Source: Deuterostichococcus epilithicus (taxonomy: Eukaryota; Chlorophyta; Trebouxiophyceae; Prasiolales; Stichococcaceae). From it: 64,000 nt of DNA. The notes under the pieces were generated by a model. It was not told where the DNA came from, searched no databases, and saw only the letters and a list, made by a program, of their open reading frames with translations. The DNA lies in the NCBI GenBank assembly GCA_033439295.1, contig JAVTLE010000005.1:3646501-3710500 (forward strand), given 5' to 3'. A program made the translations under genes and the position numbers. Shown piece after piece: positions 754 through 50,476 of the stretch. Within the stretch, counting starts at the first letter, position 1. The number at the start of each line of letters is the position of its first letter.

Positions 754-3700
754 TCAGCCTCCCCCACCCTGCAGCAGCTGCTGGAACCACGGCTCGTCCC
801 GCACCCCCGCAAAGTCCGCGTCCCCGGCCAAGTCCTCTGCGCTGACGTGCCCGAGTGCCAGCAGCCGCCGCAGCGCCGCCGCGGCATCGCCGCCGCGCCC
901 GCACCCCGCCGCGGCGCACGCAAAGTTGTAGCGCACATCGCAGCGCTCGGCAAACAGCCCCAGCGGCTTGGGCTGCGCGGCAGACGGCATCCTGTTCTGC
1001 CACACCAATGCCAAGCCAGTGCCGCAGGGTGTGTGCGCGCTTGTTCGACAGTATGCCCGCGCAACTTCTGTCCTGCCCCTCATGCTTTGGACTTGAAGCA
1101 ACTGCTGCAGTGCTGCCGCCGCCTACCTGCCGCCGCCGCCGCTGCATCAATTGCCGGCTGCAGGCAACACGCTGGCTCGCCCCCGGTCCCGTGACACGCC
1201 CACGCACCATGTGGGGCTGGAACCGCGCTGCACCAGGCCCGGCAGCTGGCAAGGGCACAGGGAGCTGGAGGAGCACCCTCACCTGCGACAGCGCCGCGGC
1301 GTAGGCGTCCGCTGAGGCGCAGAAGTGCTGCACTACTGCGTCTAAAGCGCCGCCGGCGGCGCGCGCCACACCACCCAGGTGAGCGTGCGCCTCTGCAGTG
1401 CCCACCTGCGGATCAGTTACAAAGCAAGTTTCCAGATGGTTCCGGCGAAGTCCCGCCAAGGTGGCCAGGCATCTGTGTCCCACGCATGGCGTTAGTGTTG
1501 TGTCTCCGCCAGCGAATCCAGAGGCGCAGCTTCACGGTTTCGGTGAGGAGCACGGACCACGAGGTTACGGAACAAAAGGAGGAGTGAAGCTCACCAGTGC
1601 GTCAGAGTTGCCGGCGTGTATGGCCAGTGCCGCCGAGAAGCCTTCCGTCAGCGCAGCCCGTGCGGCAGCGGCCGCCGTCGCAGGATCGCCTGCTCGCTCC
1701 GCCTGGTATGGAAGAAGCAGTTCATGGAGCAGGCTCAAAATGGAACGCCTGATATTTACAGCGCCAAGCAGGCACTGCGGTGCGGCCAGGGGGCCGTGAC
1801 AGCCACTGGTGCAGCCTGCTGCCAAGTAAAGCGTTTCCAGCAGCTGCATCCCGCAAGGTCATCTCCGGGCGCCACTGCGCCATGCTAAAGCCTGCCAGCC
1901 TCCCGCTCCGAGAAGACACCAGATCAGCCTCCGCACGGTGACGAGGAGCTGCAGGGCCCTGGGGCAGTCCTAGGTTAGGGCAGTCCTGCAGCAAGATGCC
2001 GCATGCGATGCAGCAGAACCCTAAACCCTACATACCTGCGCCATGCGGACGTCGCCAAGGGCGTTGAGCGGCGCGGGGTCGGCACGGCTGAAGGCCGCGG
2101 ATGCCGCCAGCCGCTGCGCCGCCTGCTCCAGGGCCGCGTGTGCGGCGCCGGCGTCAAGCGAGTGCGTGCCGAGCGAGTGCAGCCCCACGCCCCAGTTGTG
2201 CAGCAGGCCTGTGGGGGGTGGCAGCTGCAGTCAGATCGTGGCTTTCAAAGTCTTCTGAGCGTGAGGCACCAACTGCCAGTCTTGCATCGGGGTGTGTGCT
2301 TCCACACTCCATCCCATGCCATGTGATGCTACGCTACACTTAGCGTTTGGGTGCCAGTTGTCTATCGGCATCACAGAGCTGCATTGCTTAGCTGGCACGC
2401 GCCTGGCAGGTCATCGCCCTGTTCTGACGACGACAGCGCGCAGGAAGCTTCGTACTCCACCATCGCCCGGCGGTACAGGGCAGCCCCCGCCTCGACGCTG
2501 TTGGAGTCACAAAGCCGCTCGGCGTGCGCCACCTGTCCAACCAGCATGCATCGGATTCAGTAACAATGCCATGACTGCTGTTCATTTGAACTGCGCCATC
2601 CTGGCGAAAGAGCACCGCCCACATCGCGGCAATGTTGGGAACACCACAGCCCCTCAGCGTGGGCGACCTGTCCTATCAGGCTGCACACCATCGATGCAGG
2701 TGCATCTCGTGCAGTTACACCATCGGCCACGCGGCATCACAGCGCCTCTTGGCGTGTGTCTGATGGCTAACCAACTTGAGCTTTCGAGTTCAGCTCTAGC
2801 TCGAGAACTCGAGATGGCCAAAGTTGGTTAGAGCTAGAGCTGAACTCGAAAGCTCAACCCGGATTCAAATCGTCTCAGACCTCATCAGTTCACCCACCAG
2901 CGCATCGGCTAGGTTGCTGTGCGTCATGGCATCCTCCTCCGCAGCCAGCGCCGCCTCGTAGGCGCCGCAGGCCGCGGCCAGCAGCGGCGCAGCGCCGCGG
3001 TCGCTGCCGTGCCGCAGGTACGCCGCGGCGCACAGCGCGTTGCCGGTTGCAACCGCCGCGTCCGCCCGCGACGTGCCGTCCGGCTCGCGCACCTGTGGGT
3101 TCGGGGCCACGAGGCGTCGCCGCCTGACGTGACATGACAAGCAACGTAGCCAGGCCTTGCTGGCCAGGCCTTATTGGGTGGCTGCCTCGTCATGTCCCCT
3201 TCAGTCAAGCGGCTGGGCACGTCGAGACGCAGGCCGCACGATCGGCGCCCCCCGACAAGGGTGGCCCGGAGCCTTGCGAGTTAGACTGCATGCCCTGATC
3301 TCGAGGCGGTTGCAGCCGCTGTCTGTAGGCCGTACTGTCGGCTCATCACGCCGCGGGCGCGCTTGCCGATCAGGTTGGGCGGCACACGCGCATCAGCGTC
3401 ATGCCCCCTACCTGCTGGAAGGCCTGCACCGCTCGCTCCAGCAGAGCGTTCGCATCGGCCTTTGCTGCCTGCTCGTGGGCGCGCTGCTCGTCGGGCAGCG
3501 CGGCTGCGGCTTCCATGATCGCGTCCGCCCGGCCCTGGAGCGATTCGCCAAGGCCAAATGCCGCCCGCGCCGCTGCGTCGGCGTCCGCCGCCGGTCCTGC
3601 CGCGGCGCACGCGCAGGCCGCCTCGAATTTGCCCTGTGGCATTGCATAATAGTTCTAGCATGCGAATGGTTACAAAGAGGGTTTGGCTGCATGGGTTTGA

Positions 3701-4308: not shown

Positions 4309-7300
4309 TCAAACGCCCCAGCCATCGTCCTCTTCGTCCTCCCGCATCGCGTCGCCGCCGCCCAGCGCCGCGTACTTTGCGCCGTGGCGGGCGTCGTATG
4401 CCTCGTAGCGCGCCACCTCGTGCGGTTCCACTGTCGCCTTCACCGCCCGCGTGGCCGTCTGCAGCGCAGCAGCCAGTGCATAAGTACAAGGTAATCGAGG
4501 GCGCTGGGCAGGTCGCCTGATTGTTGCAGCGCCACCTCGTGCGGATCCACAGTCGCCCTGCCCGCCCGCATATCTGTCTGCAGCAGCAGTGAGGCACCCA
4601 ATGTGGGAGCCATGTCAGGTCTCGGCTTTGTGGTAAGGCTGCTTGCCCTTCACGCGCCGCCGCGGCAGGGCTGGCTTGACTGCAGATGAGTCGGCAGCGA
4701 TCAAGAAGAACCGATATGCCGCTGCTATCAGACAGGTGCCACCAACTGACTCGTTCCCTGAACAGAAAGAAAAGGATTGGCCCACGATCATTGGATCGTG
4801 CCGCTCAAGCCTCAGTCGCACATCCCTCGGCGCTGGTGCGCCTCCGCCTGCGATTGCGACTCTGCGGCGCAACGCCAGGTGCTTTCCGAGACACGCCACG
4901 CCTCTGAGGCCGGAAGGAGATCCGGCGAGGACAGGCAGGGAGCTTCAGCAACAATCCTCAAGGAGCCCGCGACGCCCCGGACCTGCTGTGGACCCGCCAA
5001 AATCCCGCACCCACCTTGAAGTCACGAAGCACCACAGGGCGCAGGTCCTCCGGTTTCAGGTCGGCGAATGCGGCGCCGGCGGCCGCGCGGGCGGCATCCC
5101 GCAGCGGCCCCGCGCACGCCTCCTGCAGCAGGTCCCGCATGTCCGAGCCGGAGTAGCCGGCCGTGCGCTCCACCACCTGAGGCAGAAGGTGGAAGGAGCA
5201 AGGGCGGCGTTGCCACCGGCGGCAGACTGCAAGAAATTCGGTGGATTCCGTCGGCTGTGCACCCCTCCGTTGCAGTGGGTCCCGTATGTCCGAGCTGGAG
5301 CAGCCTGCCGCTCGTTCCACCACCTGTGGCTGGCGAAATCGGGGTACGTGAAGAGAAAAAAGTGTGAAAATGGTGGGGCTGAAGGAATGGGAGGGGTACA
5401 GCATCGCCGCACAAATGACTCGGCGGCTGGCAGCGCAGTCGAACTCAAGGTGGGAGCTTTCGCCTCTTGTGGTGTGTTGAGTCTGAGTTGAGTCTGCTCA
5501 ACACGGAAATACTGCCTTGCATGCACATTCTTGCTGACGGGTGCCGGGCGGTTTCGATGACTTATGACAAGTCATCTGCATAGCGGCCCGCATCCTGCAG
5601 ATAGATGTCAGACGCCTCTAGCTGTGAGGCAGCAGGGAGCGCACCTTGTCACGCTCGGCGTCGCCGAGGTCCACCGCAATGTCGCCCTTGCCTGCAGCAG
5701 GCACGGGAGCGGGCTGTGCTCAGCTCAGACCCGCGGCGGCTCCGCACCTTAACCGTCACACCTGTTCACGATGAGAGGAAGCAGCGATGCCCTGGAGACC
5801 TGTGCACTGACGGGCGTCTGCTCACATTGCACGTGTCCTGGAGACAATGAGGAAGGTGCTGGTCTCTGGAGTGGCTGTCACCCTAAACCCATTTACCCAG
5901 GGCGCGATCTAGCATGAGGCGGCGCGCCGCGGCGCAGGGCAGCGGGATGTACAGCTGCTTCGGCAGCCGCCGCCGCGCGGCCTCGTCCAGCTCCTGCATT
6001 GGAATAGGCGCGATTCGATGAGCGAATGTGAGGCGACATGCTCAGCTGCAGCAGTGAATGGCGGCTGGCTGCAAGGCTGCCCGAGCAGCTCCCGTGCAGG
6101 TGTGGCGGCCGCCCACTGCAGCATGAAAGGGCAGAACGTTGTACGCCCTGCACCGGGCATCCTGCGCCGTGAAATCTGACGTCACGAACAGCCGCTTCAC
6201 GGCCCTCAGCTGGCAGCAAGCCCTGGTGGGGCATGGAAGGCAGCGTGCCTCGGGCCGGTTGGTGGCGGCGACCAGCAGGATGCGGCGGTCGGCGGTGGCC
6301 GCGTCCACACCCTCCATCTGCGTCAAGATCTCCGTCTTGAGGCGCCGGCTGGCCTCGTGCTCGCCTGCAGCGTCAACAAACACAGAAGTCTTGACCCCGC
6401 CTCTGATGCTCGGGACCCGGCACCGGGGCAGCCGCGGCGGCGCTGCTGCCCGTGTGAGGGTGTTTAAGGAATGAAAGGGCCTCGTCCTTGGTGTTGTCCG
6501 CTGCAGTCAGCGTGCCCGCCATGCCAGGGGGCTAGCACTGTCCCCATCCCTCGTGGATGGGACTGCTGTCCTTAGGCAATGCGTGCCTGCGCCCTTTTTA
6601 TGGGGAGAGAGGGACTTAGCAACAGAGCGAATTCTGGTGTCTGGCACCCCTGTCAACATTGCGCCTATATTCAGCAAAGCCTGTCAGCACCAGCGATATC
6701 AACCTCTCGTCTGCCAGCTGAGCGAGAACATGAGGGACGCCTGTCATCCGTTGACTGTTGGGCACAGCACACCGCACCTTCGGCCTTGCGGGCGGACAGT
6801 ATGGAGTCGATCTCGTCGATGAAGATGACCGCAGGCTGCAGGCACTCTGCAACCGTGAACAGCGCTCGAACCATCTTCTCGCCCTCCCCGATCCTGCGGC
6901 AGAGCCAATAAAAAACCGATCTGCAACGAACCCTGTGTGCATAAGAGAACTCACGCCGGCTTGGGGCGTGCGAAGGCGCTGCGGCAGGCGGGAAGCGCAG
7001 CTGTGCCCCTGCAGTGCGGCTCCGGCTTTGCTCATGCAGGCTCACGGGTTTGCAGCCCGCCATGAAAGTAGCTGTCTCGACCCCATCGGCGCCGCCGCCC
7101 CTGTCGCCGGGTGGATCGAATGCTGTTGAATTACTGTTCGGATATATAAGAGGCTGCTCACCACTTGGAGGTCAGGGAGGAGGCGGAAATGGAGAAGAAG
7201 GTGGCGCGGATGTTGGAAGCAATCGCGCGCCCGATGAGCGTCTTGCCCGTGCCTGGCGGCCCGAACAGGAGCAGCCCCCGCGCTGGGGCGCGCGCCCCCT

Positions 7301-13343: not shown

Positions 13344-15511
13344 CTGTGATATGCCAGTGGCGCGGCAGCAGCTCAGGCCGGCGCGTGATGGGACCAAGTC
13401 AAGGAGATTGGAAGGGGGCCGGAGGGGGTGCTGTAGCGGTAAGCGGGCGCCCCGGCCATGCGCAACAGCGCAACATCTGGCAGCACGACAGCTGGCGCTC
13501 GAATCCTGGCTGCGACACCGCCAAGCTGAGCTCGGCGCGGAGGGGTTGGCGTGGCCTAAACCGTAGACACACGTGCTCCCGCCGCACCTGGGATTTGACG
13601 CCAGGGCGCGAGCGACGGCCACGCGCTGCATCTGGCCGCCTGACAGCTGGCGCGGGTACCGGTCCCCGAGGTCGTCCAGCTCGATCAATTTGAGCAGTTC
13701 CCGCACCCTGCGGTCGGCGACAAGCATTGAATTGGCAACGTCCCAGCACATGCGCACGTGTTTGATGCGGCAGGCCGGCGGCAGCAACCGTGTCTGGACG
13801 GGTCGCGAAGCGCTTTTCGATGCGGCGCATTGCGGCGGGTGCTTGCCCCTTGATCTGGTGCAGTTCAAGCCCCCTTTCGCACTCCAGCAAGTCGCGCAAT
13901 TCCGCACACGGTCATGGGCGCAGATGCACAGCCGAGTGGGAGGACACCACCATGTTGGAGGGTGCAATATCTTTGAGAGCCAGGGAGCTGCACCTGGCCT
14001 TGCTGTCAATGGGCAGCTTCCTAATGCGGATGCCAAAAGCGATGTTGTCCGCCACCGTCATGTGGTTGAAGAGCGCATACGACTGGAAGACGAAGCCGAT
14101 GCGCCGCTCCTGCACCGTCGCCCGCGTCACATCCTGGCCTGCGCCGGAACAGGGAGTATGTTTGCATTTGGATTCGCACCGAAGTGTCATTTGTCCCCGA
14201 AGTTTGTGGAACAAGCTTTAAACACATATGTGGTGTGAAGTGAGGCGGAGCAATCGACTGTGGAGTATCTGGAATGCAGTTGAGAGGTGCAAGACTCACT
14301 GCCAAAGAGCACACTGCCAGCATTACTCTCCTCGAGCCCTGCGATTAGCCGCAGCAGCGTCGTCTTGCCTGCGACCACCAATGGACGGATTCAGCAGACG
14401 GCGACAGCAGAGCCACCCTTTGCGCCCCTTATCCCGTGGCGTCACCAACTTGACTGTGGGGGTCGTGACCAAAGCCCGCCAGCCTGTGTGCTGTCGATGC
14501 AGCCGTTTTGGCGCCCTTGGAAGATAGAGACTTGTCCTTTGTTATTGCAAGACCACCCGAGTCAGACCAGCAGGGCATCAGAGCAGATCCAGGGGCGCGT
14601 GCGGCAGACCTGATCCTGACGGCCCCAACAGCGCTGTGATGGAGTTGGCGGGGACGTCCAAGCTCACATCGTTCACTGCCAGGAAGGGCCGCCCGCTCCG
14701 AGTCTTATACTCCTTCGTCATGCTGCGCACCTAGAGCAAGGGTGTCACGACATGTGAACCAGCTGTTTCTTTCCTTCGCTGCGCAGCCTGACCAGATGTA
14801 TAGTGGAAAGACGAGCATGACAACAGGTGCAGCGCCTCGTGTTGTTCCGGAGGTCTCACACAAGTAGGCGGTGCTACTGCCTGGGAGTTTGTGCATGTTT
14901 TTGCTATGCCTTGGCGCTGTCTTTCAGCAACCGCAAATGAGCCTTTGCCACTGATACGCGTTCATGGCAGGACGTGACGAGACTAAGAAGGTGGTCGGCG
15001 CCTCACCGAGACACCAACGCCATGCTTCTCCTGCTGCATCGGGTCACTTCCCCGCGATTGCTGCCGTTGGAGCTGCGCACCGTTCGAGCTGCTGGCTGCT
15101 GGCTGCTGCGTGCTCTCCCGTTCCTGCGGTTTGGGCCGGATCAGAGCACAGTCAAAACGGCAGTCGAACAACATTCCTCACCTTTGCAAATGGAAGCAGC
15201 CCGAGGCAGCACACAGGACACAGCCTTCGCGCAGGCACTCCCGCCGAAGGCAGAGCCCTGTATACGCATGGGTTTGGCATCCGGCCGGCACGGCGCCTCA
15301 CCAGAAGCAGCTCTTCGGGCTGATCTTTCTGCAGTGTGCCAGGCGTGGCCGGCTGAGGTTCACTGGGCCGCCTGTATGTCGCCGCCGTGCACACCCGCCG
15401 CTGGGACCCTGCAGCTGCTGGCCTTCTGTGCTGCCGCACTGTCGGGAGCACCGCCACTGCCGGCAATGCAGGCCCAAGCTGCAGCTGCGGCTGCTGCGCC
15501 GGCAGTCGCAT
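11853..15511 (-). CDS. SABC: Chloroplast sulfate ABC transporter ATP-binding subunit
   Basis: Nine exons, high to low: 15302-15511, 14610-14730, 14300-14368, 13994-14138, 13588-13707, 13045-13168, 12601-12743, about 12155-12335, 11853-11996. Exon 1 gives a 70-residue basic, Ser/Thr/Ala-containing leader from ATG 15511, a likely plastid transit peptide. Then come a Walker A split by an intron (LLGPSGSG / [13 protein letters not shown]), Q-loop [20 protein letters not shown], signature [16 protein letters not shown], Walker [15 protein letters not shown]-loop IFVTHDQ and a CysA-like C-terminal domain ([25 protein letters not shown]). This fits the CysA/SABC subunit that powers sulfate import across the plastid envelope with SulP-type permeases. 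The intron starting at 13044 has a GC donor. A generic CysA-like ABC ATPase is the alternative. Confidence 0.9.
13281..13343 (-). repeat. Echo of the Walker-B exon start with CTG expansion
   Basis: The real exon starts at 13168 (CAG then GCTGCTGCTCCTGGACGAGC). A copy starts at 13343 (CAG then GCTGCTGCTG...), where the leucine codons have grown into a run of CTG triplets before CTGGACGAGC reappears. Further on, CACTGGAC echoes GCGCTGGAC. Spacing is 175 bp, of which about 20 bp is triplet expansion. Confidence 0.8.
13845..13907 (-). repeat. Echo of the ABC-signature exon start
   Basis: The real exon begins at 13707 and reads [14 protein letters not shown] copy around 13907 reads [13 protein letters not shown], preceded by a similar GACCG string. 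Spacing is about 201 bp. Its acceptor dinucleotide is not clearly kept, so it is more decayed than the others. Confidence 0.65.
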
Positions 15512-35755: not shown

Positions 35756-38700
35756 ATGCAGAGTTTTTCAGGCGGTGCATTGCTGCACACATTCGCTGGA
35801 CATGTTGCAGCCATGCCTTGCCTGCGCTGCAGCCCCACAGCCAACAGCAGCAGGCCCGAGACAGAGTCCCGTGCACAGAGCGGCTTACTTCAGCGACGGT
35901 GCAGCAACTTCATCAGCGGGGCGCAGCTCAGGCCCAGCAGGTCGAGCCAGCATCGCGGCAGAGCTGCTGCATTGCGACGACTACAGTGCAGAGCGGCGGC
36001 TACGATAGAAAAGGAGGAACTGTCGGATGGTGAGATTTCGTCGGCCTAGGCCGCATGCGGTATGCAGCCGCAGCATGCCTCCCGCCCTCGCCGGTCGGCA
36101 CGGCAGGACATGCCGCAGACATGACACCGGATTCAGCATGCACGCACGATATGACATTTCGAACATGACTTGACGCAGCCAGACACTGGCGCTTTGACAC
36201 TTGCTCGCAAAGGACCTGTGTGCTGGCATCGCGGACTGCCCCCACTGGCCGTCAGGCGGGGATCAAACCTGGCTCAGGGCGCCGTTATGATGCTGGCACG
36301 ACGTGCTAAGCCCCCATGCAGGCGACGTGCCAAACGCACTGCGTGGATCATCGACCAAAAATGGCACCGCCATCTGAGATGAACGCTACTGCTAATGTGT
36401 CATGCAGCGGAGAAGCGTGCGGCGGCGGCGCAGGCGGCCGAAGCCGAGGTGGGCTTTGCGGGCGACAAGGTGGCGGTGCAGCTGCAGCGCAGCTTTCCGC
36501 TCGCGTCGGTCGTCGGCATGGACGACATCAAACAGGCGCTGCTGCTCGGCGCGGTGAGTGACAATGACGGTTGTGCCGTTGTTGGTCGATCATCATGACC
36601 AGACGCGGCGTGTTCATGCAAGGCCCAGTGCCTTGTGACAGCGGCCGCCGGACATCGCCCACGGCGCAGCATTCCATCTGACCTCTCACATGCCCTGATT
36701 TTTTCGGAGCCATCGCCGACAGGGCAAGACACCGGTTCCGTCACAACACGCCTCGGCGCCGCGGCCACCATCTGCATCCGTTGCGCACTCCGCCATGTCT
36801 ACCAGCAGTGCCTACCTGCCGCCCAACTCCTCTCTCCACCCCGCAGGTGGACAACCAGCTGGGCGGCGTCGCCATAATGGGGCGGCGCGGCACTGCGAAG
36901 AGCGTCATGGCCCGCGGCATCCACGCGCTGCTGCCGCCCATCGAGGTGGTGTCCAGCTCCTGGTGCAACGCCGACCCAGAGGAGCCGCGCGCCTGGGAGG
37001 TGCGCTGCGCAGGGCCTCTCAACCCTCGATAGCACCCACTCAGCAGTGAGGCTTCAGGGATGTATGCAATGCCGACGCATCCATCTAGCACGGGCGCGGC
37101 CTGGCAACCCAGATGCTCTGGTGCCCTGCAGCGCGGCAGTCTCACATGCGCGGCGTCCGCAACAGCTTCGTCGCAACGCGGCACCGGACTATGGGCCTAG
37201 AATGTATCGAAGCGGCTACTGTAGCGTGACTGCATGCCCTTCTACATCTGGCTTCGTAACTGCCACCGCAGGACGGGCTGAAGGAGCGGCTGGGGGCTCA
37301 GGCAGCGGACCCGCCGCGGCGGGTGCGCAGCGCGCCCTTCGTGCAGATCCCGCTGGGCGTGACAGAGGACCGCCTCGTCGGCACCGTCGACATCGAGGCC
37401 TCCATGAAGGTGCGGAAAGGTGCACAACGGTGCACCAAGCGAGGGAATAAGCTGCGGCGTTTGCACTCCCACACGGGCGGGCCAGGCGGCGCCCAGCCCG
37501 CAGCAACTCGCCACGGCGCTGCATTCTCGCGCTAGGCGCGGCCATTGCCTCTTGCACGAGACCCACCGGCCGCATTGCCCCAACCACAGGAGGCCTTACA
37601 GTGTCCCAGTGCGGGGCATTCCAGCCGGGGCTGCCTGCGGAGGCGCATCAGGGCAAGCTGTGCGTCCATGAGCTCTGCTTAGCCGTACAAACGTTTCGAT
37701 CATCCTTGTTTCAAACTGCCCTCGACAGGAGGGCAAGACCGTGTTCCAGCCGGGCCTGCTGGCGGAGGCGCACCGGGGGGTGCTGTACGTGGACGAGATC
37801 AACCTGCTGGACGAGGGCGTGGCCAACCTGCTGCTGTCCATCCTCTCCGACGGTCGCAACGTCGTGGAGCGGGAAGGCATCTCCATCAGCCATCCGTGAG
37901 TTGGATCTTGTGCCATAACACCCCTGAGGTGGCTCATCTCACATTGGGTGTCACCAGGGCTGCTGCTGGCCGTCCCGCGGCTCGCTGCGCATGCTGCAGG
38001 GTGCTCTCCGTTGCCTGTTTCAAAACAAGACCTCGCACCTCGCACACCTGCCAGGTGCAAGCGCTGCTGATCTCGACATTCGACCCGCATGAGGGATTTT
38101 GCAGGAGCACCTGCTGGTGTACCATTGGTGCCGCTGTCGACTAGCTGTTGTCAGCCCTAATGTTGCTGTGGCAATCATCAATGCAGGTGCAAGCCGCTGC
38201 TGATCGCAACGTACAACCCGGAGGAGGGGCCCCTGCGGGAGCACCTGCTGGACCGCATCGCGATCGCGCTCAGCGCGGACGTGCCGCCCACCTTCGACGA
38301 CCGCGTCGCCGCCGTCATGGCTGCTTCGCGCTTTCAGGACGAGTATGTTGAGATGCTGGCGGAGGCGAAGGAGACCACCGACGACCTGCGCAGCCAGGCA
38401 AGACAGAGCTTGCAGCATGTTCTCAGGGCTGTTGGTAGAGGTATGCATGGTCCTGTGTGCCGCGCATGTGAGTGGTGCAGGCGGTCTGTCAGGTGCTGCG
38501 CTGCCGCCGGGGGGGCGGATCGGGGGGCAGGCTGCATGGCGGGGGGCTGTGCTGTGCCCGTGGCCAGCCGGAACGCCTGGCGCCTGTTCACCTGGGTGCA
38601 GCGGGGCGGCGTCCGCCTGCGGTCGGCGGCCAGGCCGATGCTGAGCAACAGACGGACGTGGAATCGCAGCCGAGGCACCAGCCAGGTCGGCATGGGGCAG

Positions 38701-41700
38701 CACTCTGCACCTCGCAGTGCAGCGCAGCAGCAGGAGTGGCGCTAACGTGAGTCCTCACGCCACGCAGGTCATCTTCTCGCGCGAGTTCCTCAAGGAGGTC
38801 AAGATCGGCGACAAGCAGGTGCTGCTCACCTCTCCCCTTCTTGCTGTGGTGCAAGCATGTGGTGCAAGGGTTGTTTGCACACGGTTGCACGCCGCTGCTT
38901 CAGCTAGCTGGGTGCCTGCGCAGCGCACAGCCCAGGGCGACCCGCGACCCGCACCATACCGGCGCCGCATTGCTGCCGAAACATTCTCGCTGTGCGTGCA
39001 GGTCAAGTACATCGTGGAGATAGTGGAGCTGTGACCCGCAATCCGCACTCTGCACCGCTGCCAAAGTGTTCCTGCTGTGCGCGCAGGTCAAGTACATCGT
39101 GGAGACGGCGCGCCGCGGCCGGGTGCAGGGCCACCGCGCGGAGTTGTTTGCGGTGCGCGCCGCCAAGGCGGCCGCGGCGCTGGAGGGCCGCGGCGACGTG
39201 TCGCCAGAGGACGTGCAGAAGGCCATCCGCCTGGTCATCATCCCGCGCGCCGACCTGGACGCCATGAACAGCCAGGTGCCGTCCGCGCCCGGGGAGGGGG
39301 GGCTCTTAGGCGGGGAGCAGGCAGGCCGGTCAAGGGTCCAGCAATGCAGCACCTGAAAGCGCCCTGTACGGGCAGCTCGACTGTGGCAGCCTTGCAGAGA
39401 CCTGTAGCGGGAGAGTGAGCGTGAATGCCGCTGGTCCTCGCATCTTCCCCTAGAACGCTGATGGGGGGTCCAGCAGTTGTTGGGGCACAGCAAATGCAGC
39501 CTTTGCACTCGCCTCGTGGTCAACTCTGTCCAGGAGCAGCAGCAGGAGCCACCCCTGCCGCGTCGGGCTCCTGCATTGCGAGCCACACCATGAATCGAAC
39601 TTCCAGCAAGCTTTTCTATTCCAGGAGCAGCAGCAGGAGGAGGAGTCGCCGCCGCCGCTGCCGCTGACAACTATTCTATGATGCGAGCCAACTAAAACTC
39701 CTAATATAATGAGTCCGTCCCCTTTTGTATCCAGGAGCAGCAGCAGGAGGAGGAACCGCCTCCTCCGCCGCCGCCGCCGCCGCCGCCAGAGGACCAGCAG
39801 CAGGAGGAGGACAAAGAGAAGGAGGAAGAGGAGGAGGAGGAAGAAGACGAGGACGAGGTAATTTGTCGGCTCCCTGAGCCTGGATGCCCATTTCTTTCAT
39901 ATGATAACCCCGGCAGGCAGGTACATGAGCGAAGCCCAGTGTGTGGCGCTGCCGCCCGCCGCCCACATTTGCGGTGGCCGCGTGATGGGTCGCCGCATTC
40001 ATGGCGGCTAGTTTGAGCTGCGTTGGAGACAATGCAGCATACGCAGGGTGCTGAAGGAAGAGGGATGCTCCCTTGACGCCGGGCAGCGGAGCTTAGAGAT
40101 GGCCGGCAGGCAAGGGGTCTGGCAGCATGAAGCATATCCTGTGGCCGAGGAGTTTCTGCTCGCCTCAATGGCGTTGCGCGGATCACAAACAACTCGCTCC
40201 CAGTCCAATCGAAAACATCCGTTTTCTGGTAGTCCCTCCATCTCGCAAGGAAGCCGAGATTCCTGCATCCGCAGGACGAGGACGACGACCAGCAGCCGGA
40301 CCAGGTGCCCGAGGAGTTCGTGTTCGACAGCGAGGGCGTCGTCCTAGACCCCTCGGTCCTCATGTTCGCGCAGCAGCAGCAGCGGGCGCAGGGCCGCTCC
40401 GGCCGCGCCAAGACCGTCATCTTCTCGGAGGACCGCGGCCGCTACATCAAGCCCATGCTGCCCAAGGGTGGGGGCTCCTCCGCTGTGGACCCGCCAGCTC
40501 AGATCCTGCCGGCTTGCACGGTGGTAGCCATGATTGGTGTGTGTAGTGCACCAGCGCTGCTGGAATCAGGGGCGCATGTTGTGGCGACGGCGCCAAAACT
40601 GTCGACGATGCCAGAGTCAGCTGGCAGCGCGAGCCAAGCTGGGGCGAGCGACGCGGCACAAGCCGCCGCCTATGTGTCGCAGCATCACGAGAGGTCTGCA
40701 CCGCTTCTTCCTGCGCAGTCGCACATGCAGGAAGGCCGTCAAGCGGCTTGCAATCAACGCCACACTACAAGTGGCTGGCCCCTGCCCATCGGGTGTTCCG
40801 CCAACAACAAACCTATCAGCAATCACGCCCGCCGCCACTCCTCCTGCCTTAGAACCTTGGCGAACCTGGCACAGGCGGCAAGGTGAAGCGGCTCGCGGTG
40901 GACGCCACGCTGCGACAGGCGGCGCCCTACCAGCGCTCGCGGCGGACGCGCGCTGAGGCTGCCGAGGCGGCCGGCACCGGCAAGACGCGCAAGGTGTACG
41001 TCGAGAAGGTGAGGCTACCTAGGAGCTTACAAGGAAGGCAAGCCTGAGGGCTCGCAATGGCATTGAGACGACCTTTTGTGGTATTTTCTCCCGGCCGGGC
41101 CGCGGCGCCAGCGCTCCCTCGCTCCATGATCCCTACTTTTGGGCTAAAGATGCTCAAGTGCACACCAGTGCACAGTGGCGAGTATTCGGGACATGTAGAC
41201 AGCAGTAGCGGTTTCAATGCGCCGGCAAGTTCGACAGCTTCTGCGCTGCCAATGCGAGTTGCTGACAGGGGGTGCCGGTGTCCGACCCAGGTGGACATGC
41301 GCTCCAAGCGCATGGCGCGCAAGGCGGGCGCGCTGGTCATCTTCGTGGTGGACGCCTCCGGCTCCATGGCCCTCAACCGCATGGCCTCCGCCAAGGTGCC
41401 CGCCTGCTCACTCTTTCGAACGCAAAACCTCACTCGAAAGTGCGAAACCTCACGCTGCCCCTGTTGTGGCACCCAGTCCGGCTTTCATTCTGCGTAGCTC
41501 CCTCCCGCCTGCTGCCATGCGCCACCATTGTTGCACCCACCTCGGGCTGCGCCGCCGCTGTGCGCCGCTGCTGCGCGTCACGACGGCACTTCTGCACGCC
41601 CTCAGCAACCTGGAAGGGCGAGAAGTCGAGGGCGTATCTGAATGCCTGCCCTCTTTATAGGCCTGTGCATGTGCACGGTGGACTGCTTGGTACCGTGGTG

Positions 41701-43935
41701 GGGAACAGCTCTTTGAAAGATTCCAGCTCCAATTTTCTCAATTATGGGCAGTCATATGCACAGCTTTAAATACCTAACCGTTGTGCTGCTGCAATTCGTA
41801 CAGGGCGCGGCGATGCGGCTGCTGGCAGAGAGCTACACCAGCCGTGACCAGGTGACTGCCGTGCGGCTGTTCCGCTTCCTCTTTTCCGTGTGGCGCCTGC
41901 CAGACGGAACCGTGCATCAGGCTGAGCCGGCCGCCATTCACCGCATCAGGCTCATCAGGTTTGCAACCCTCGTCCGTGCTTGCTACAGCCTCATCAAGCA
42001 CAGCTGAGCAGGACGCAAGTTGACACACTAATCAAAACCTAAATACAAATACAAAGATCATCTCTGCACTCTTCCCCGCAGGTGTCGCTGATCCCCTTCT
42101 ACGGCGACCAGGCGGAGGTGCTGCTCCCGCCTTCCAAGTCCATCTCCATGGCGCGGCGGCGGCTGGATTCGCTGCCCTGCGGCGGCGGCTCGCCCCTGGC
42201 GCACGGCCTCGCCACCGCCGTCCGCACCGGCCTGCAGGCGCAGAGCTCGGTGAGTTGGCTTTAAGTGCATACCCTCCCTTCCGCCAACCAGAGCGTGCGG
42301 CGCCGGGCCTTGCCACCGCCGTCCCCACCGGACTGCAGGCGCAGAGCTCGGCGGGTCGCCTTGTGAGCCTGCTGGATGCAGCTTTTACACGTCAGCATTC
42401 TGAGGGGCACCGGGCTGCAGGCGCAGAGACTGGTGCCGCGCCATGCCAAGGCTTTGCTACCTGTTTCCGGAATTCACACTGAGAGCGGACTTCCAGCAGG
42501 ATTGCGTTTGTTCAGGACCACACTGACAGAGCAACGGAAGGCCCTGACAGACGTGACACTCCCCCTGCTGGCTCGCCCACACAGGGAACGTACGATTCTG
42601 GCATTTCTGTCAAATCACAGTCCATTCACCACGCGCACCCTGCTGCCGCAGGGCGACTGCGGACGTGTGATGGTGGTGCTGCTGACGGACGGCCGCGCCA
42701 ACGTCAGCCTGGCTAAGAGCAACCGCGACCCGGACGCCATCGCCGAGGACGCCCCAAAACCCTCCACGGTGCGCTGCCTCGAATCCTCCCTTGCTGCAGA
42801 AAGATGCGGAGTCAATATGTTGCTCGCCATCGCTTGCACTTACTTCGAGCATGCACTGCCTGAGCAGCAATCTGCTGTCACTGCCCCTGTGTGCGAGAGC
42901 AACCGCCGCATGCTGACGAAGGTCTGCTGGTGCATCACATGGCGGCAACTTGAAAGGCTGCAGACAGTTGTGAAGCGTGACCTTGATGGAGCCAGGTCAG
43001 AGACGCTTAAACGGTTCTGCATCCCAAACCCTAAAATCTAAAGTCTGGTGCCTGCAGGAGGATCTCAAGGAGGAGGTCATGAGCATGGCCAAGAAGATCG
43101 GCGTTGCAGGTGACCCGCAGATGCAAAATCTTAACGTGATCCAATGATTTGCAGAACAAGAATAAGCATTCGTCGCCAAGGGCGTGCGGCCACCTGAATG
43201 CTTTGTTGCTGTGCGGGGGCTTTCACCATGTTGGATCATGCAGTCATGCTGTGGTTCCTCACCGATTTGTCTTGCTGCCCATCACAGGCTTTAACCTGCT
43301 GGTCATCGACACAGAGAACAAGGTGCATTTCAGCACAGCGACCTGTTCCCTGCAACCTGCTATTGCAACCTGCGCCCTGCTTCAGCCTGTTGTTGTTGCA
43401 GCGTGTCAGCCGAGCCTGGCGGCATACAATGATGCGGTGTCTCTTTCGGGTGTGCAGTTCGTCAGCACAGGCTTTGCCGAGGAAATTGCAAAGGTGCGCT
43501 GCGCTCCGCATCGTGATTCACAACCAGCCGCTATGTCGCAGGCTTGCCATTGTGCTCATGTGACGCATGCCTTGGACCTTTGCGGCATAATTCCCATCAT
43601 ACTTATGCTGTCTGATGTTCCTTTTGGTGTGGTGTCCACCCAGGGCGCCCAAGGGCGGTATTACTACCTGCCAAACGTGAGTCCTGGGAACCCTGCCGCA
43701 CCATGCATTGTCCCCGCCCTTCAATGTGTGCACTGCAGCCATTGAGCTGCAGTTTGGATCAACACTGCACCCATTGCATTTCTTTTCTGTGACGTACGAG
43801 CCTCTGTATTCAATATATGAATGAGATCATTGTGACTTTTGAGCTGAGCGCCGCTCTCTTGCTTCTGTGCAGGCCAGCGACCAGGCAATCGCCATGGCGG
43901 CGTCTTCAGCGATGGCAGAGGCAAAGGCGATGTGA
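35756..43935 (+). CDS. CHLD: Magnesium-chelatase subunit D
   Basis: Twenty exons: 35756-36028, 36408-36553, 36847-36999, 37272-37409, 37729-37895, 38187-38397, 38768-38818, 39087-39275, 39735-39857, 40274-40467, 40875-41008, 41291-41395, 41804-41850, 42082-42249, 42652-42768, 43058-43109, 43288-43322, 43458-43493, 43644-43676, 43873-43935; about 810 residues. A Ser/Arg-rich leader is followed by a AAA-like domain with the degenerate P-loop expected of ChlD ([17 protein letters not shown]), [18 protein letters not shown] and [18 protein letters not shown]. Next come a Pro run and a Glu/Asp linker, then an integrin-I domain with MIDAS motif [14 protein letters not shown] and [11 protein letters not shown]. 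With ChlI and ChlH it inserts Mg into protoporphyrin IX in the chloroplast, the first committed step to chlorophyll. The intron at 38398 has a GC donor. Five introns hold echoes of neighbouring exon edges. Confidence 0.97.
37578..37682 (+). repeat. Echo of chlD exon 5
   Basis: Real exon 5 starts at 37729 after a CAG. A copy starts at 37590 after ccacag. It shares ttccagccggg.ctgc.tgcggaggcgca and fades through gtgcgtccatgagctctgctta, the decayed match of gtacgtggacgagatcaacctg. Spacing is 139 bp. Confidence 0.9.
38043..38130 (+). repeat. Echo of chlD exon 6
   Basis: Real exon 6 starts at 38187 (gtgcaagccgctgctgatcg). A copy starts at 38055 after ctgccag (gtgcaagcgctgctgatctc). It continues through gacccgcatgagg (real: aacccggaggagg) and gagcacctgctgg. 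Spacing is 132 bp. Confidence 0.92.
38925..39034 (+). repeat. 85-bp tandem duplication across the exon 8 acceptor of chlD
   Basis: gctgtgcgtgcag plus gtcaagtacatcgtggaga ends the first copy. The second, real copy is gctgtgcgcgcag plus the identical 19 bases. Similarity continues leftward into the intron (gacccgcgacccgca against gacccgcaatccgca), so the unit is an 85-bp direct tandem repeat. The first copy runs into a TGA shortly after. Confidence 0.93.
39531..39734 (+). repeat. Two upstream echoes of the chlD exon 9 acceptor
   Basis: ccaggagcagcagcaggag occurs three times, with the G of CAG ending at 39533, 39624 and 39734; only the third opens the real exon encoding the Pro/Glu linker. Units are about 91 and 110 bp long and share a downstream gcgagcca string, so whole units were copied. 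All three acceptors look usable. Confidence 0.93.
42262..42440 (+). repeat. Donor-side echoes of chlD exon 14
   Basis: The end of exon 14 (gcctcgccaccgccgtccgc, then accggcctgcaggcgcagag and ctcg) is repeated downstream in the intron at about 42307-42352 with a few changes. It recurs as a shorter copy (caccgggctgcaggcgcaga) at about 42408. Here the copied edge is the donor side, not the acceptor side. Confidence 0.9.
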
Positions 43936-44444: not shown

Positions 44445-47406
44445 TCAGCTGCCGCGATACGTGCTGTAGCCGAAGGGGTTCCATGTCAGCGGGATGTGGA
44501 AGTGCTGGTGCACCTGCGCATCGGCAGCAGATGGTGCGTTTATTGCAGCGTGTCTGCAGACCAAGACCTCAGGAAGCACGCACACATGCCGGGCACTGCA
44601 GCAGGGTCAGTCGCGTTCGCTCATAGGCTGCGGCCCCAGCCGGAGCAGTGAACACATATTGCCTCCGTAACTTCTGCAACTTGCCACCAGCGCCGCTGGG
44701 TCTGTGCAGGGAGCGGTAGCTGGTTTCGCTTTTGAATCCTTGCCTGGTCGGGCGCAACATTGAAGACGACGCTGACGGTGGGGTAAAAGGGTTGTGCCGG
44801 CCAGATGCGCGGGTGCGCCACGCAGCAGCCCGCCATGTACGCCTCGGTGCCAAACACCACCCTGTAGCGCCCTGCGGTCACCACGACAGGCCAGCAGGTT
44901 GGTACTGTAGTAAGGTGAGTCCAGTGTGGACCATGCTTGCATAGCCGCAAGGCCACGCGGCAGCCCGCCGCGCACGCCTCTGTGCCAGACAACATCCTGT
45001 CGCGCCCTGCATTGCCCGCAACAAGCGAGGCTGGTGATACTTGAAAACATCGGAGCTTGTGCCGATTCAATCGCAGCACGCTGCGGCAGCACCGTGCAGC
45101 AGTCAGCCTCACGCCGATCCCTCTCACAGCAGTCACGCAATACCTTCCCTGTGTGGGCGCATGAATAATGCAAGCACGCTGCGCCGCAGGGTCTTGTCCC
45201 TGGCAGTCTGCAGATTCGCCTCAAGCCATGCCTTACAGCCTCGTGATGATGCTCTGTCGGGTCCCAGCAGCGTGCAACAGATCAGCTGCAATTCGAGTTT
45301 CCAACTTGCTGGACTGGACCTGGAACTCTTTGACACCAGATTCTGCGGTCGACTTGCTGGAAACCCACCTGGCGCGATGTAGCTGCCCGGCGGCAGCAGC
45401 CCGGGCACCCGCCCGTCCGTATTGGTCTGCGCCTCCGCCAGCGTGTCCCAGGCGGCGTCGCCGCCGGCGCCCGGCGCGCAGCGCTGCAGCGTGATGGCCA
45501 CGCCCGCCGCCGGGCGCCCGAGGGAGGTGTCCAGCACATGGCTGGTGACCGGGGACACCCCGGCTGCAGCGCGGGTCGCACGGTTAGCGATGCTGGTGCG
45601 ACACGCAGGCGAGGAGTCAAGGGGTTAGAGCTGTGGCGCCGGACGCCGGAGTCCCGCGCGCGGCTGCCGGTGCTGGGGTGACAGCATCCTCCAGCAAGGC
45701 CGCAGCGGAGGTGCCCTCTCCTGAGAAAGCGACAGCTCTCGGCCCTGCAAAAGCGGCGGGCATCAGCAGGGCGATGCAAAGCGGTTGCTGCCGCGCGCAG
45801 TTGCAGCGCCTTCCTGCACAGGGGCGGGCGTGTTCACCTGCGGCCGGCGGCGCAGCCGCGGCTGGCTGCGCGCCGAAGAGGCCCGCGAGACGGCGCTCCG
45901 TGATACGCATCTGTTCCGCCGCCGCCTGGACCAGCTCCTCATGCGGCGCCTTTTCGTACCTGCGCGGGTACGAAAGGCACGGAGGAGGCGGTGGTTGACG
46001 GTATTGGTGCAGTTGCCAGGACATCGATTCCAGTTGGTGCCGCCCGCACCAGCCTGCCGTGCGGCGACCTGTCTGCGCATCCGGATGGTGGCTGGCCTAG
46101 GGGGAAGGTCAGCGCCACTGCCACAAACGACATGCCGGCGGTTGGCTGCCGCCCAGCGCATATACCTCGATTCCATGTGCGCAACACATGGTGTGCCACA
46201 ACGCCGTCCGCCGGGACGAACATGTGCTTGATGGCGGAAACTGGGCAGCGGCCTGGGTGCTGCAGCTCGCTGCACAGGACACGGCAGTGCATGAGCACTT
46301 GAGATGTGTCCGGGGGGCTCACCGGCGCTTGACCGCGGCCAACACCTCTCCGGCGCTCTTGCCGGCGGCAAAGATGAGGAACACGTGCCCAAACTTGGCC
46401 TCGTACCGCCTGTTCCAGTCTGCCAGCTCCTGTCATTACGATGCAGGCTGGCATTCAGGGGTGCAAGCCCTTTGCGTGGGCGGGACACTGACGGCTGCAT
46501 TGCCGGCGCCAGCTGCACAGGCGGGTAGGAATTGCAGCACTGCTGCCATGACACACACGTGGCTGCGGCACGCAAGCATGACCACCTGCGCACGCCCTCA
46601 CAACAGCCATGCAGAGGTGCGGCGACGCCAGGGGCGCCAGCATGCGGCTGCTCCCCTGCTATGCGGCCTATGAGGTGCTGGCGGCAGGCGCCTGCTCGTC
46701 GCAACTCACACCGGCAGAGCCTTTGCCGAACGCTTGATCCACGTTCTCAGAGGCATGCCGAAGGGTGGGGACCACAACTCGCCTGGTAGACGGCGTCGGG
46801 GGCGCCGGAAGCAGACGCCTGCTCATGGCGGCTCATGTCGGCGAACCCGCCGAGCTTGGCCTTGAGGCCTGCGGCGTCGCCGATGCGTGGGTGCGCGCCG
46901 AACGCCTCCAGCCAGCCCGCCACGCTCGTCTGCATGCATGCGGCGCAGCTATTGTGTGGCGCAGCTGTTTATGTGGCCTGTTACGCTGGCATCGCAGGCG
47001 GAGGCCTGCCCAGTGCATTGTCGAGGTACTGTGCCGCACGGCCCAAACCACGAGTGAAACACACTCTCGGCATGAGGAAGTAAGCCACTCGCGCAGACTG
47101 GGTTGCAGGCATGCCGGCAACAATTGCGTCACCTCCGTCTGATGCGTGCGCTGTTTATAGTACCTGCCGCCATTGCTACAGCAGAACCGCTGCATACACA
47201 TGCAGAACTCCAGCTAGTGATCGTACGACGTGTGCGTAGGAGGAAAGGCCCACCTGGTGCCACCAGATGTCGCGACAGATGTCCACCAGAGCATCGAGGC
47301 TGCCGCCCGCCGCGGCATCTGCCGCCAGGCGTTCGGCAACCTTTGCGGCAAACGCGCGGCAGGCGCAGCAGTCGAAGATCTGCGCATTGGTGACCGCCCC
47401 AGCCAT
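44445..47406 (-). CDS. TTL: Allantoin synthase: OHCU decarboxylase fused to HIU hydrolase
   Basis: Exons, high to low: 47254-47406, 46783-46929, 46323-46429, 45838-45959, 45369-45563, 44744-44872, 44445-44513. The N-terminal half is 2-oxo-4-hydroxy-4-carboxy-5-ureidoimidazoline decarboxylase: GAHPRIGDAAGLKAKLGGFA, HEQASASG, ELADWNRRYEAKFGHVFLIF and RITERRLAGL. An Ala/Pro linker leads to the transthyretin-like 5-hydroxyisourate hydrolase: SPVTSHVLDTSLGRPAAGVA, TNTDGRV, AQPFYPTVSVVFNVA and the signature end HFHIPLTWNPFGYSTYRGS. The two activities turn the product of urate oxidase into S-allantoin, as in the plant fusion enzyme. I see no PTS1 and no clear PTS2, so peroxisomal targeting is not supported. 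Introns starting at 46782 and 44743 have GC donors. The upstream choice GTG (47415) was rejected in favour of ATG 47406. Confidence 0.93.
44935..45006 (-). repeat. Echo of the HIU-hydrolase exon
   Basis: The real exon starts at 44872 after CAG. A copy starts at 45006 after CAG, 134 bp upstream. By hand count about 46 of the first 55 bases match (for example GGCACAGAGGCG against GGCACCGAGGCG, and GCGGGCTGC in both). The copy then diverges. Confidence 0.93.
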
Positions 47407-48419: not shown

Positions 48420-50476
48420 ATGCCGTCAGCTGCGGACAAGGTGTAAGCTAACGAATGGCAGCTTGACTGCGGTCAGACAACCTGCTGCACGCCAAAGTAT
48501 GTGGCAGAGCCTGCGGGCTGCCAGAAGCATGAGAGCTATGGTGAGGTAGGCTGCGCTTGCTTTGCGCCGCAGGCGGCGGAGGCGGCAGAGGCGGCGCACC
48601 CAGCCGCCAGGATCCCGCATGAACTGCTCGTCCATGTGCTGAGCCGCAACCTGGTCAAGGCATCGGATCGCGACAAGGTGCGTGCGTTTTTGTGCGAGTC
48701 CTCAAGGCGCTCTTTCCAGGTCAGTCTCTCGCTTCCCGCTGACACAGGCACACTGCCTGTGAACCATGCACGATCATCAGTGCGCTGATAGAGCATGTCA
48801 GGCTGTAAGAACTGCTAATAGCGAGAGGTGCCAACGCGTGTCGGCGTCCCTCTCATGCTGACACGCTGTGTGTGAAAGTGCCCCTGTAGCGGGGTCGAAT
48901 CTTTGCAAGGCTCTACTCAGCCGCACAGCTCGAGTCACGTCACGCGCACAGCCATGATCCATGGTTGCAGGCGACTGCGATCTGCCTTGTCGCACATGCC
49001 ACAAGGGTGTTGCTATGAGCTTTCACATCTCTCTCCAGGGGTTTGCAGGTTGTGGCGGCTTACGGCCATGTAGGCTTCTGGGTTGTGGAATGGCGCGCAC
49101 AGATCCTGCAGGGGCACGCACGCCAAGGTCACTACACGGCACCGGAGGTGCCTGGTGAATTTCGCCATGATCGTCCACATCTTCTGTTGTGCGTCTGCAG
49201 GTGGTGGCGGCTTACGGCCATGGCCTCCACTGGGTGGTCGTTTGGGACTCACATCTCGTACAGGCGCGCGCGGACGGGCACTATGCATCACCAGTGAGGC
49301 GTCTTGTGACTCTTGTCCCATGGGCTGTCAATGCTGCTTCCGTCAGCGTCGCTCGCACAACGTCTCTGTTCACCAAGGCGTGATGTCTTCTGAGACATTA
49401 ATAGAGTAGACTTCATCAGGCTGCATGGACAACATAGCCGTGTGAACCGGAGCAAAGGCCCGCCGCAACTTGCGGCAACCCCATGCCGCCATTGCCGCCT
49501 GGCACACGGTTGTTGGCCATTGTGCCACGACTCACATGGTGCGTGCATGCAATGTCTGTGGTATCCGAACGAAGTTTGCGTCCCATCTAATTCCATGTTT
49601 AGCGTGCAGCATGGCTACCGAGCAGGCGGAAGATCATAGCGTCTGCAGCATATGGAACAGTGCAGCCCTGGTGAAGTTGTCGTGTGGCCGCCCCACAGGG
49701 CATCTTCATGGAGGCGGACCTAGCGGAGCTGGAGCAGCTGAGCGGGCGAGTACTTGGTGGAACGCACCCTCGAGTACCTGCGTTGGCTTTACTTGGGCAG
49801 CCCATCCCGCCCGCGCCACATGGCTTCGTGCATTCGGAAGGCGCATCGTGGGCATGCGCTTGCCTCGAGTCAGAGTGCGTGATTCCGCATGGGGTCCGTC
49901 CATGGCTTGTGACGAGCAGCACGGCAGGCGGACTCTTGTGTGGCCTGGTGGTTCAAGCTCCGGAAGCACGGCTGGCGCTAGCAGGAAGCTGCAGGCTAGG
50001 AGTGGTGCAGGCGATTCTCATATGTCAATCGACTATGTTGCAGCAAATGCAGGGTGAAGGCCAGCCGACATGGCCTTCTTGGGGTCTCTGTAAGGCATGC
50101 CTCGATGTGTCAGATCGGGAACAGCTGATGCCGTTAATGGCCGCGGCACAGGTTCTGAGGAATGCGCCTCTCAGCGGCACAGTACGCCATGGCAGCAGCT
50201 GCGCAGCTGGCGCAGCCTGCAGCCCAGAATGAGCACGTGCAGCTGCTCACCAGCTCCGCAGCGGACGTCTTGGTGCCAGCGCAGCCGCCGCCTGCTCACA
50301 ACCTCAGCTTGGATGCCCAAGCCGGCTTGACTGTTCATGAGGCTCAGCTGGCCAGCGTAAAGGGCCGGCTCTTCAAGGGGCCGCCGCCGTGCTTGCTGGG
50401 CCTGACCACCCTGTGGGGTGTGGTCGCATACCAGTACGCCGCCATGCACCTTCCACCAGCCCGCCGTGGGCGCTGA
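48420..50476 (+). CDS. Small unrecognised protein with one predicted membrane segment
   Basis: Proposed exons 48420-48440, 48573-48677, 49201-49293, 49699-49749, 50183-50476; all junctions are phase 0 with GT-AG signals, giving about 187 residues. It starts MPSAADKAAEAAEAAHPAA. Then come RIPHELLVHVLSRNLVKASD, VVAAYGHGLHWVVVWDSHLV, FMEADLAELEQLSG, a Gln/Ala/Pro stretch, and a C-terminal hydrophobic segment (CLLGLTTLWGVVAYQYAAMH) before a basic end. The name is open. Exon 3 is supported as real coding sequence by the presence of its decayed echo 152 bp upstream, which lacks its codon pattern. The acceptor chosen for the last exon was set by phase. Confidence 0.5.
49032..49165 (+). repeat. Full-length echo of exon 3 of the small gene
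   Basis: The copy starts at 49049 after gtttgcag (gttgtggcggcttacggcca) and the real exon at 49201 after gtctgcag (gtggtggcggcttacggcca). Similarity runs on through the exon: tgggttgtggaatgg against tgggtggtcgtttgg, and ggtcactacac against gggcactatgc. Spacing is 152 bp. This is one of the clearest cases, because the whole exon is recognisable in the copy. Confidence 0.95.

Follow-up and report, generated by a model that had tools for sequence, protein, structure and literature searches.

Decayed copies of exon edges in the introns of Deuterostichococcus epilithicus, probable relics of old tandem duplications

About one in ten introns in the sampled parts of the Deuterostichococcus epilithicus genome carries a decayed copy of a nearby exon edge. 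The copy is most likely left over from an old duplication of about 100-150 bases. The existence of these exon echoes is confirmed. Probably they are what is left of tandem duplications some 90-160 bp long, a known class of mutation. A first-pass annotation of the window (the whole 64,000-nucleotide stretch of contig JAVTLE010000005.1, positions 3,646,501 to 3,710,500) had reported them as direct duplications that span a splice site and then lose one copy to decay, and that description is supported here.

Exon edges match their own introns

We sampled 214 kb of the genome, with 396 modelled introns and 106 kb of intron sequence. Gene models were self-trained from the sequence without RNA support, and agreed with the exon edges of the first-pass annotation at 12 places, one of them differing by one base. 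Each exon edge was aligned with its own intron and, as control, with length-matched foreign introns (score at least 80). Edges matched their own introns far above the controls on both sides, in 20 of 388 acceptor-side cases (1.0 expected) and 17 of 384 donor-side cases (1.1 expected). Donor echoes were thus about as common as acceptor ones, contrary to the acceptor-heavy earlier list with its single donor case. At the same threshold no exon interior matched its own intron (0/213 and 0/206), and reverse complements of acceptor edges, donor edges and the two interiors gave 3, 0, 0 and 1 matches (1.25, 1.25, 0.5 and 0.4 expected).

The echoes had been proposed as a genome-wide habit. In the sampled stretches they are unevenly spread: 1 of 98 introns was affected in one 50-kb block vs 39 of 298 in the other two blocks. 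A 20-kb stretch added later, with 42 introns, contained three junctions scoring at least 85 (127, 109 and 90), against 1 of 800 control comparisons.

An exon-only scan at scores of at least 80 produced a catalogue of 41 echoes (23 acceptor, 18 donor). Their matched exon stretches differ by 6-39%, which makes an assembly artefact, named beforehand as a possible refutation, unlikely. None of the 41 exceeded 94% identity, young events being scarce. Mismatches were nearly even across codon positions (0.244, 0.228 and 0.297 at positions 1, 2 and 3), and the differences between copies show little sign of selection.

The median echo offset was 131 bp, and 22 of 33 echoes (score at least 85, no more than 20 nt from the junction) lay at offsets of 100-149 bp. 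Uniform simulated lengths would place 22% of detections in that range and differ from those observed (KS, P = 0.0003). The spacing cluster of 85-150 bp first suggested was correct in kind, most offsets falling near 90-160 bp. Introns with an echo were longer than those without (median 374.5 vs 237 bp, P = 6 × 10−10), a gap close to one unit, although longer introns also give more room for matches.

Direct repeats are in excess near each other

In ungapped 40-bp windows at offsets of 40-999 bp, the window contained 16 direct repeats with at least 29 of 40 identities, 11 of them at offsets of 40-199, and both far-offset controls contained none. A gapped scan of the 214 kb (score at least 120) found 65 direct repeats, 28 of them at offsets of 100-149 bp, compared with a mean of 3.0 in four far-offset controls. 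Nearby inverted repeats numbered 14, fewer than the direct repeats yet above the far-offset figure. The excess is one of two nearby copies in the same orientation, as in short tandem duplication, and reverse-complement edge matches stay near expectation. Tandem Repeats Finder reported four arrays with a period of at least 35 in 234 kb.

Class ratios at a score of at least 120, from 41 of the 65 repeats, were 5 intron-only and 1 intergenic to 31 at exon edges; these counts drop 10 repeats with offsets above 300, along with 14 whose alignment far exceeded the offset in length, including the strong echoes 4458, 37729, 78484 and 98690. With no length filter, there were 41 edge, 5 intron-only, 3 intergenic and 6 exonic repeats. 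The 49201 pair is one of these three intergenic repeats.

Echoes in the window

Features of the window are listed in Table 1. The 13 acceptor rows of the first-pass list were each compared with shuffles and with 600 draws from the whole intron set, which may include the pair's own intron; 11 reached or exceeded nearly all draws and eight exceeded all, the rows 4458, 5176 and 37729 being equalled by one or two. Two pairs were unconvincing, namely 13168/13343 (score 91 vs a best draw of 94, in a CAG-repeat stretch) and 13707/13907 (72 vs a best draw of 83 and a best shuffle of 81). The three copies at 39735, 39625 and 39534 are present, but in a low-complexity GAG/CAG stretch with 138 of 201 bases masked, and this largely masked locus was left out of the gapped-scan, edge-enrichment and 41-echo statistics. 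The donor case 42249 was strong, with 48 bp at 88% and a score of 239, for which no null was drawn; its intron sides gave no significant alignment. The 31480 echo was not recovered at 80 or above by the exon-only scan.

Echoes at the donors 13587 and 46782 and at the chlD exon start 40875 are absent from the earlier list. That list had placed its pairs in at least eight unrelated genes. The convincing ones are spread over four gene models, apart from 49201, which lies in none and whose exon edge rests on the first-pass call; the first model (711-14721) may be several genes fused. Four chlD homologues were compared: they are continuous across the junctions 37729, 38187 and 42249, and vary in length around 39735.

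Table 1. Echoes and related features of the window (positions in the window; offsets in bp)
Feature	Position	Strand	Details
Acceptor-side echo, exon edge 2532	2449..2685	-	copies 2449-2550 and 2585-2685; 68% over 103 columns; offset 136
Acceptor-side echo, exon ending 4458	4392..4587	-	offset 119
Acceptor-side echo, exon ending 5176	5119..5332	-	copies 5119-5185 and 5264-5332; 81%
Weaker donor-side echo, donor 13587	13441..13681	-	copies 13441-13527 and 13598-13681; scores 129, 113
Moderate acceptor-side echo, exon start 31480	31363..31540 (ends approximate)	+	copy at about 31363; score 104 vs best of 600 draws 86
chlD, magnesium-chelatase subunit D gene model	36395..43935	+	carries five of the first-pass junctions
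Acceptor-side echo, chlD exon start 37729	37590..37801	+	offset 125-139
Acceptor-side echo, chlD exon start 38187	38055..38251	+	offset 132
Near-complete tandem duplication, chlD intron end and exon start	38939..39105	+	copies 38939-39020 and 39026-39105, 5 bp apart; 76%; real exon start 39087
Three low-complexity copies, chlD exon start 39735	39534..39762	+	copies at 39534, 39625 and 39735
Acceptor-side echo, chlD exon start 40875	40719..40931	+	offset about 145; scores 130, 110
Donor-side echo, chlD exon ending 42249	42189..42369	+	core copies 42214-42261 and 42315-42362; 88%
Acceptor-side echo, exon ending 44871	44808..45029	-	offset 135
Donor-side echo, donor 46782	46674..46891	-	offset 127; scores 131, 105
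Direct repeat 49049/49201	49024..49246	+	offset 152; outside gene models

Intron sequence within the duplicated units

Some units visibly contain intron sequence. In the C1 block, the copies 78371-78458 and 78467-78556 match at 84% over 90 columns, intron tail making up the first 16-18, and 98648-98746 and 98751-98837 match at 67% over 99 columns, about 56 of them intron (both pairs pre-cut at the offset). The intron parts of 79349-79655 also align (P = 0.004). An intron-only pair, 12933-13041 and 13045-13154, matches at 64%, again between stretches pre-cut at the offset. In some arrays there are three copies, with units that almost abut. Units in several arrays are 3-8 bp apart; for 31 of 33 echoes no match over the full offset could be seen.

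For most echoes, intron homology was not seen. The intron halves failed to align significantly with their partners in 31 of the 33 testable echoes (combined P = 0.31), and in 28 echoes their similarity had a mean z of 0.06, where simulation at the age implied by exon identity gave 3.17. The 33- and 28-echo sets leave out of the 41 those with a score below 85, a match far from the junction or a short spacer or flank. At simulated older ages of 0.4, 0.5 and 0.6, only 16 of 125, 9 of 74 and 1 of 42 would align at P < 0.05. Greater age together with the picking of the best-looking echoes can explain the missing homology for the bulk. It does not account for 35968 in the C1 block or 42249 in the window, where the exon match is 94% and the intron halves give P = 0.68 and 0.21. 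It hardly accounts for 44871 in the window, 45458 in the C1 block and 5176 in the window either (exon identity 82-84%; intron-half P = 0.73, 0.88 and 0.10). At 98690 in the C1 block, non-alignment came from the second copy, and the nearer copy aligns. Homology profiles of 13 acceptor and 4 donor cases reached background level some 10 nt inside the intron.

Alternative explanations

These profiles are what would be expected if break repair near a splice site had copied only a 40-80 bp block of exon edge, the spacer being new, unrelated DNA. The non-aligning intron halves, well-preserved echoes included, also favour this reading, as does the spacer of the 94% echo at 35968, a degenerate TTTAGGG stretch; C1 and C5 both begin with TTTAGGG arrays, and telomere-likeness over 36 spacers reached a combined P of 0.035. 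Telomere-like spacers are not general, however (5 of 36 at P < 0.05, median P = 0.52), the echo at 78484 in the C1 block has a related stretch within both units, and none of nine interstitial telomere repeats was convincingly flanked by a direct repeat, the one that beat its shuffles (L034) being low-complexity. Random short blocks with even ages of 0 to 0.5, the span of that simulation, predict an intron-only to edge ratio of 1.07, against 5 to 31 observed. We consider such short-block repair unlikely. Telomeric filler as a general mechanism, an idea prompted by two spacers, was dropped after the spacer and interstitial-repeat tests; 35968 alone fits it. A repair or RNA-linked process bound to the splice junction might instead copy the exon edge and its splice signal into the neighbouring intron while leaving out the intron beyond. 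Such copying predicts both a homology that stops sharply some 10 nt past the junction and well-preserved echoes lacking intron homology (35968, 42249), and appears distinctly improbable overall. Spacers do not seem to be a mobile-element family: among the matches listed from blastn of the 36 spacers against the 214 kb, there were short chance ones, and one spacer matched further copies at its own locus. With one protein query, no related intron-bearing contig was found among viral contigs.

The first-pass annotation suggested that echoes could act as decoy or recursive splice sites. Many retain AG or GT, and the gene finder itself called 39002-39022 an exon. Retention is nevertheless near that of neighbouring bases, in small numbers: among 13 of the 23 acceptor echoes AG is kept in 9 (6.5 expected), and among 7 of the 18 donor echoes the donor dinucleotide is kept in 4 (4.1 expected). 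Offsets show no preference for multiples of three (14/13/14 modulo three). The codon-position pattern argues against retained splice function, and also disfavours the echo as a translated or alternative exon, as do the homologues for one chlD echo, the residues of 39002 being missing in all four compared. We judge it very unlikely that the echoes persist as splice sites of a decoy, alternative or recursive kind. It is highly unlikely, too, that they are what remains of introns born by the AGGT model, in which a piece of exon is duplicated in tandem, although this is the same kind of mutation and part of one review (PMC3443670) covers many cases. That model expects the offset to equal intron length and the echo to abut the other splice site. 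Only one of 41 echoes, a weak one, lies within 10% of intron length, in line with the distinction drawn in the first-pass annotation, and intron sequence is visible inside some units. Chance similarity or low complexity would suit the two weak listed pairs and the repetitive one, but the far-offset, foreign-intron and draw controls count against it, the first two refuting it for the whole set, and we give it almost no weight.

Discussion

Old tandem duplication, the reading we favour, would begin with a pair of nicks roughly 100 bp from each other or with a staggered break, filled in and rejoined such that the stretch is doubled. Inside a coding exon, a duplication would usually break the protein and be lost. 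Across one splice site, the outer copy would be spliced out and the intron would gain one unit, the echo staying recognisable for long because the inner exon copy is conserved. Wholly intronic or intergenic duplications would fade about twice as fast, both copies drifting. Because most events are presumably old, the visible remnant would be mainly exon echoes. The splice machinery would not be required, and the echo would need no function.

Simulated random duplications of suitable age yield the edge excess with no splice-specific mechanism. At ages of 0.30-0.50 and 0.35-0.55 substitutions per site, a range picked after the data were seen, intron-only to edge ratios were 0.19 and 0.10, and intergenic to edge ratios 0.13 and 0.05. 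With ages even from zero, the model predicts 0.6 intron-only and 0.39 intergenic per edge repeat, which is too many. The class ratios thus fit placement independent of splice sites if events are mostly old, and misfit it if ages are uniform from zero. The special tie to splice edges first suggested is not supported, since random duplication, selection and decay can give the same ratios under mostly old ages.

Fill-in at staggered breaks has been demonstrated to produce small duplications in mouse and human cells (PMC8355091, in the part consulted). Like the echoes, those duplications are short and tandem, and arise with no need of repeats or homology; they came from induced breaks with overhangs of 43-50 bp, whereas the algal units are longer and known from sequence alone. 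The anatomy of the units has a precedent in a potato RdRp gene, where, according to part of the report (PMC4974935), a boundary-crossing tandem duplication likewise comprised an intron end and the following exon start. That was one case and created a new intron; the alga has dozens, decayed, and the existing intron was seemingly just enlarged. As described in part of the review cited above (PMC3443670), AGGT intron gain is similarly a tandem duplication within a gene rendered harmless by splicing. In the alga, by contrast, there is no new intron, the opposite splice site is not abutted and both edges are similarly affected.

Among titles and abstract openings, with few subscription journals, we found no description of introns that hold copies of exon edges across a whole genome, the single potato case aside. 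Patch-mediated tandem duplications in rice are likewise natural, short and explained by break repair. They are described as recent insertions, not as decayed intronic exon-edge copies like those of the alga.

If the reading is right, it carries a warning, in that repeats may seem tied to splice sites through conservation alone. By a rough estimate, duplicated units may account for about 12-18% of the sampled intron sequence (106 kb), taking 31 edge repeats, a detection rate of 0.37-0.53, about 0.8 intron-only events per edge event and about 125 bp each. If the tandem-duplication reading is true, exon edges would serve as preserved references that make long-decayed intron duplications countable, and would offer a way to measure intron growth without transposons.

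Sample and gene models

The genome that holds the window comprises 46.8 Mb in 21 contigs. Beyond the window, we sampled 150 kb, consisting of C1:500001-600000 (the C1 block) and C5:1000001-1050000 (the C5 block), and 20 kb adjoining the window were added later. Gene models (432 exons, 396 introns) were predicted from sequence by a hidden-Markov gene finder trained on the sampled sequences. Their splice consensus was GCAG/G at acceptors and GTGCG-like at donors; 48 of the 396 predicted introns (214 kb) started with GC rather than GT. The models that were checked agreed with Pfam domains (four proteins), one solved-structure match and homologues of chlD, the magnesium-chelatase subunit D gene. 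Among the best 120 of 7952 relatives, the modelled chlD protein was nearest to two proteins at 81%, followed by relatives from Chlorella, Micractinium and Trebouxia, a ranking that suggests a green alga of chlorellalean-like affinity. A single predicted gene at window 44445-47406 carries both an OHCU decarboxylase domain and a HIUase/transthyretin domain; OHCU decarboxylase and HIUase represent two late steps of urate breakdown.

Exon-edge echoes

Ungapped direct repeats in the window (offsets 40-999, 29/40 level) numbered 16, versus 0 at two far-offset sets. A gapped scan of 214 kb yielded 65 direct repeats scoring at least 120 against 3.0 expected, with an offset peak at 100-149 bp, and 14 nearby inverted repeats. 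Each exon edge was compared with its own intron, with foreign introns as the control, a check that the first-pass annotation had proposed. At a score of at least 80, own-intron matches were found for 20/388 acceptor edges (1.0 expected) and 17/384 donor edges (1.1 expected); raising the threshold to 100 left 17 and 10, respectively, where 0 were expected. Queries taken 60-120 nt inside the exon gave no matches (0/213 and 0/206), and reverse-complement queries gave 3, 0, 0 and 1 against 1.25, 1.25, 0.5 and 0.4 expected. The own-intron excess was present on both acceptor and donor sides, and exon-edge echoes, decayed direct copies of an exon edge inside the adjacent intron, are real. Eleven of the 13 acceptor pairs listed in the first-pass annotation (one of them low-complexity) held up, as did its donor case at 42249; the other two acceptor pairs were weak.

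With exon queries slightly longer than those of the edge test, we identified 41 echo junctions (23 acceptor, 18 donor) in 40/396 introns, at a median offset of 131 bp. Echo-bearing introns made up 1/98 in the C5 block, where introns are shorter (median 211 bp), versus 39/298 in the other two blocks (P = 1.5 × 10−4). Thus, the duplication process or its preservation is uneven across the genome sample.

Structure and decay of the units

Several loci hold tandem duplications whose units nearly abut and contain intron sequence, and some arrays have three copies. Echo offsets were more concentrated than expected from uniform unit lengths, and introns with an echo were longer by about one unit (median 374.5 vs 237 bp). 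The echoes have decayed with little sign of constraint, as mismatches were nearly even across codon positions 1, 2 and 3 (0.244, 0.228 and 0.297), alignments contained 44 gaps in 2267 columns, and splice dinucleotides were retained about as well as neighbouring bases. Elsewhere, the two halves of the predicted W_8 protein, from a gene model containing a longer repeat, were similar by eye.

Duplications, repeats and tandem arrays located in the sampled sequence
Feature	Stretch	Position	Period or offset	Matches
Near-abutting duplication including intron sequence	window	38939-39105		
Near-abutting duplication including intron sequence	C1 block	78371-78556		
Near-abutting duplication including intron sequence	C1 block	98648-98837		
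Near-abutting duplication including intron sequence	C1 block	79349-79655		
Repeat pair, entirely intronic		12933-13154		
Tandem array in or overlapping intron	C1 block	19387-19643	104 bp	79%
Tandem array in or overlapping intron	C1 block	87760-87892	57 bp	94%
Tandem array in or overlapping intron	C5 block	23766-23870	51 bp	96%
Repeat in gene model W_8	window	53473-53922 / 54384-54888	~910 bp	

Telomere-type repeats

Contigs C1 and C5 both start with TTTAGGG arrays. Genome-wide, TTTAGGGTTTAGGG occurred 318+301 times, counting overlapping matches, and its reversed control had 0 matches in the whole genome. The places listed included contig starts and scattered interstitial positions; no convincing flanking direct repeat was found at nine interstitial TTTAGGGTTTAGGG sites examined on C1.

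Age of the duplications

Simulated random tandem duplications with ages spread evenly over 0-0.5 gave intron-only/edge and intergenic/edge ratios of 0.6 and 0.39 (0.55 and 0.36 in another run). The observed ratios were 5/31 and 1/31; dropping the length filter changed them to 5/41 and 3/41. At simulated ages of 0.30-0.55 substitutions per site, a range picked post hoc, the ratios were 0.19-0.10 and 0.13-0.05; random duplication fits the observed class ratios if most events are of this age. The mean echo identity of 0.73 is consistent with these ages. No echo in the 41-junction list exceeded 94% identity and there were four tandem arrays with a period of at least 35 in 234 kb, a scarcity of young copies that agrees with the old age range.

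Significant alignment of the intron halves was absent in 31/33 tested echoes. Ages of 0.30-0.55 fit much of this missing homology, and the bulk of the failures can be explained by age. Two echoes, at C1 block 35968 and window 42249, match the exon at 94% yet lack the intron homology that was expected, and those at window 44871, C1 block 45458 and window 5176 (82-84% exon match) also show less than expected. Indels that arose next to the junction after the duplication may lie behind these cases; so may events in which break repair copied the exon edge, with unrelated filler between the copies.

Relation to known duplications

Tandem duplication within genes is a known source of new introns (PMC3443670), and a unit of exon start plus preceding intron end is described in potato (PMC4974935). 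In mouse and human cells, staggered-break fill-in has been demonstrated to yield small tandem duplications (PMC8355091). The literature searched yielded no description of a genome with such relics in about one tenth of its introns, those introns being about one unit longer. Relics at this frequency are a quantitative variant of a known duplication type. A whole-genome study is worthwhile, mainly because exon edges make old duplications countable.
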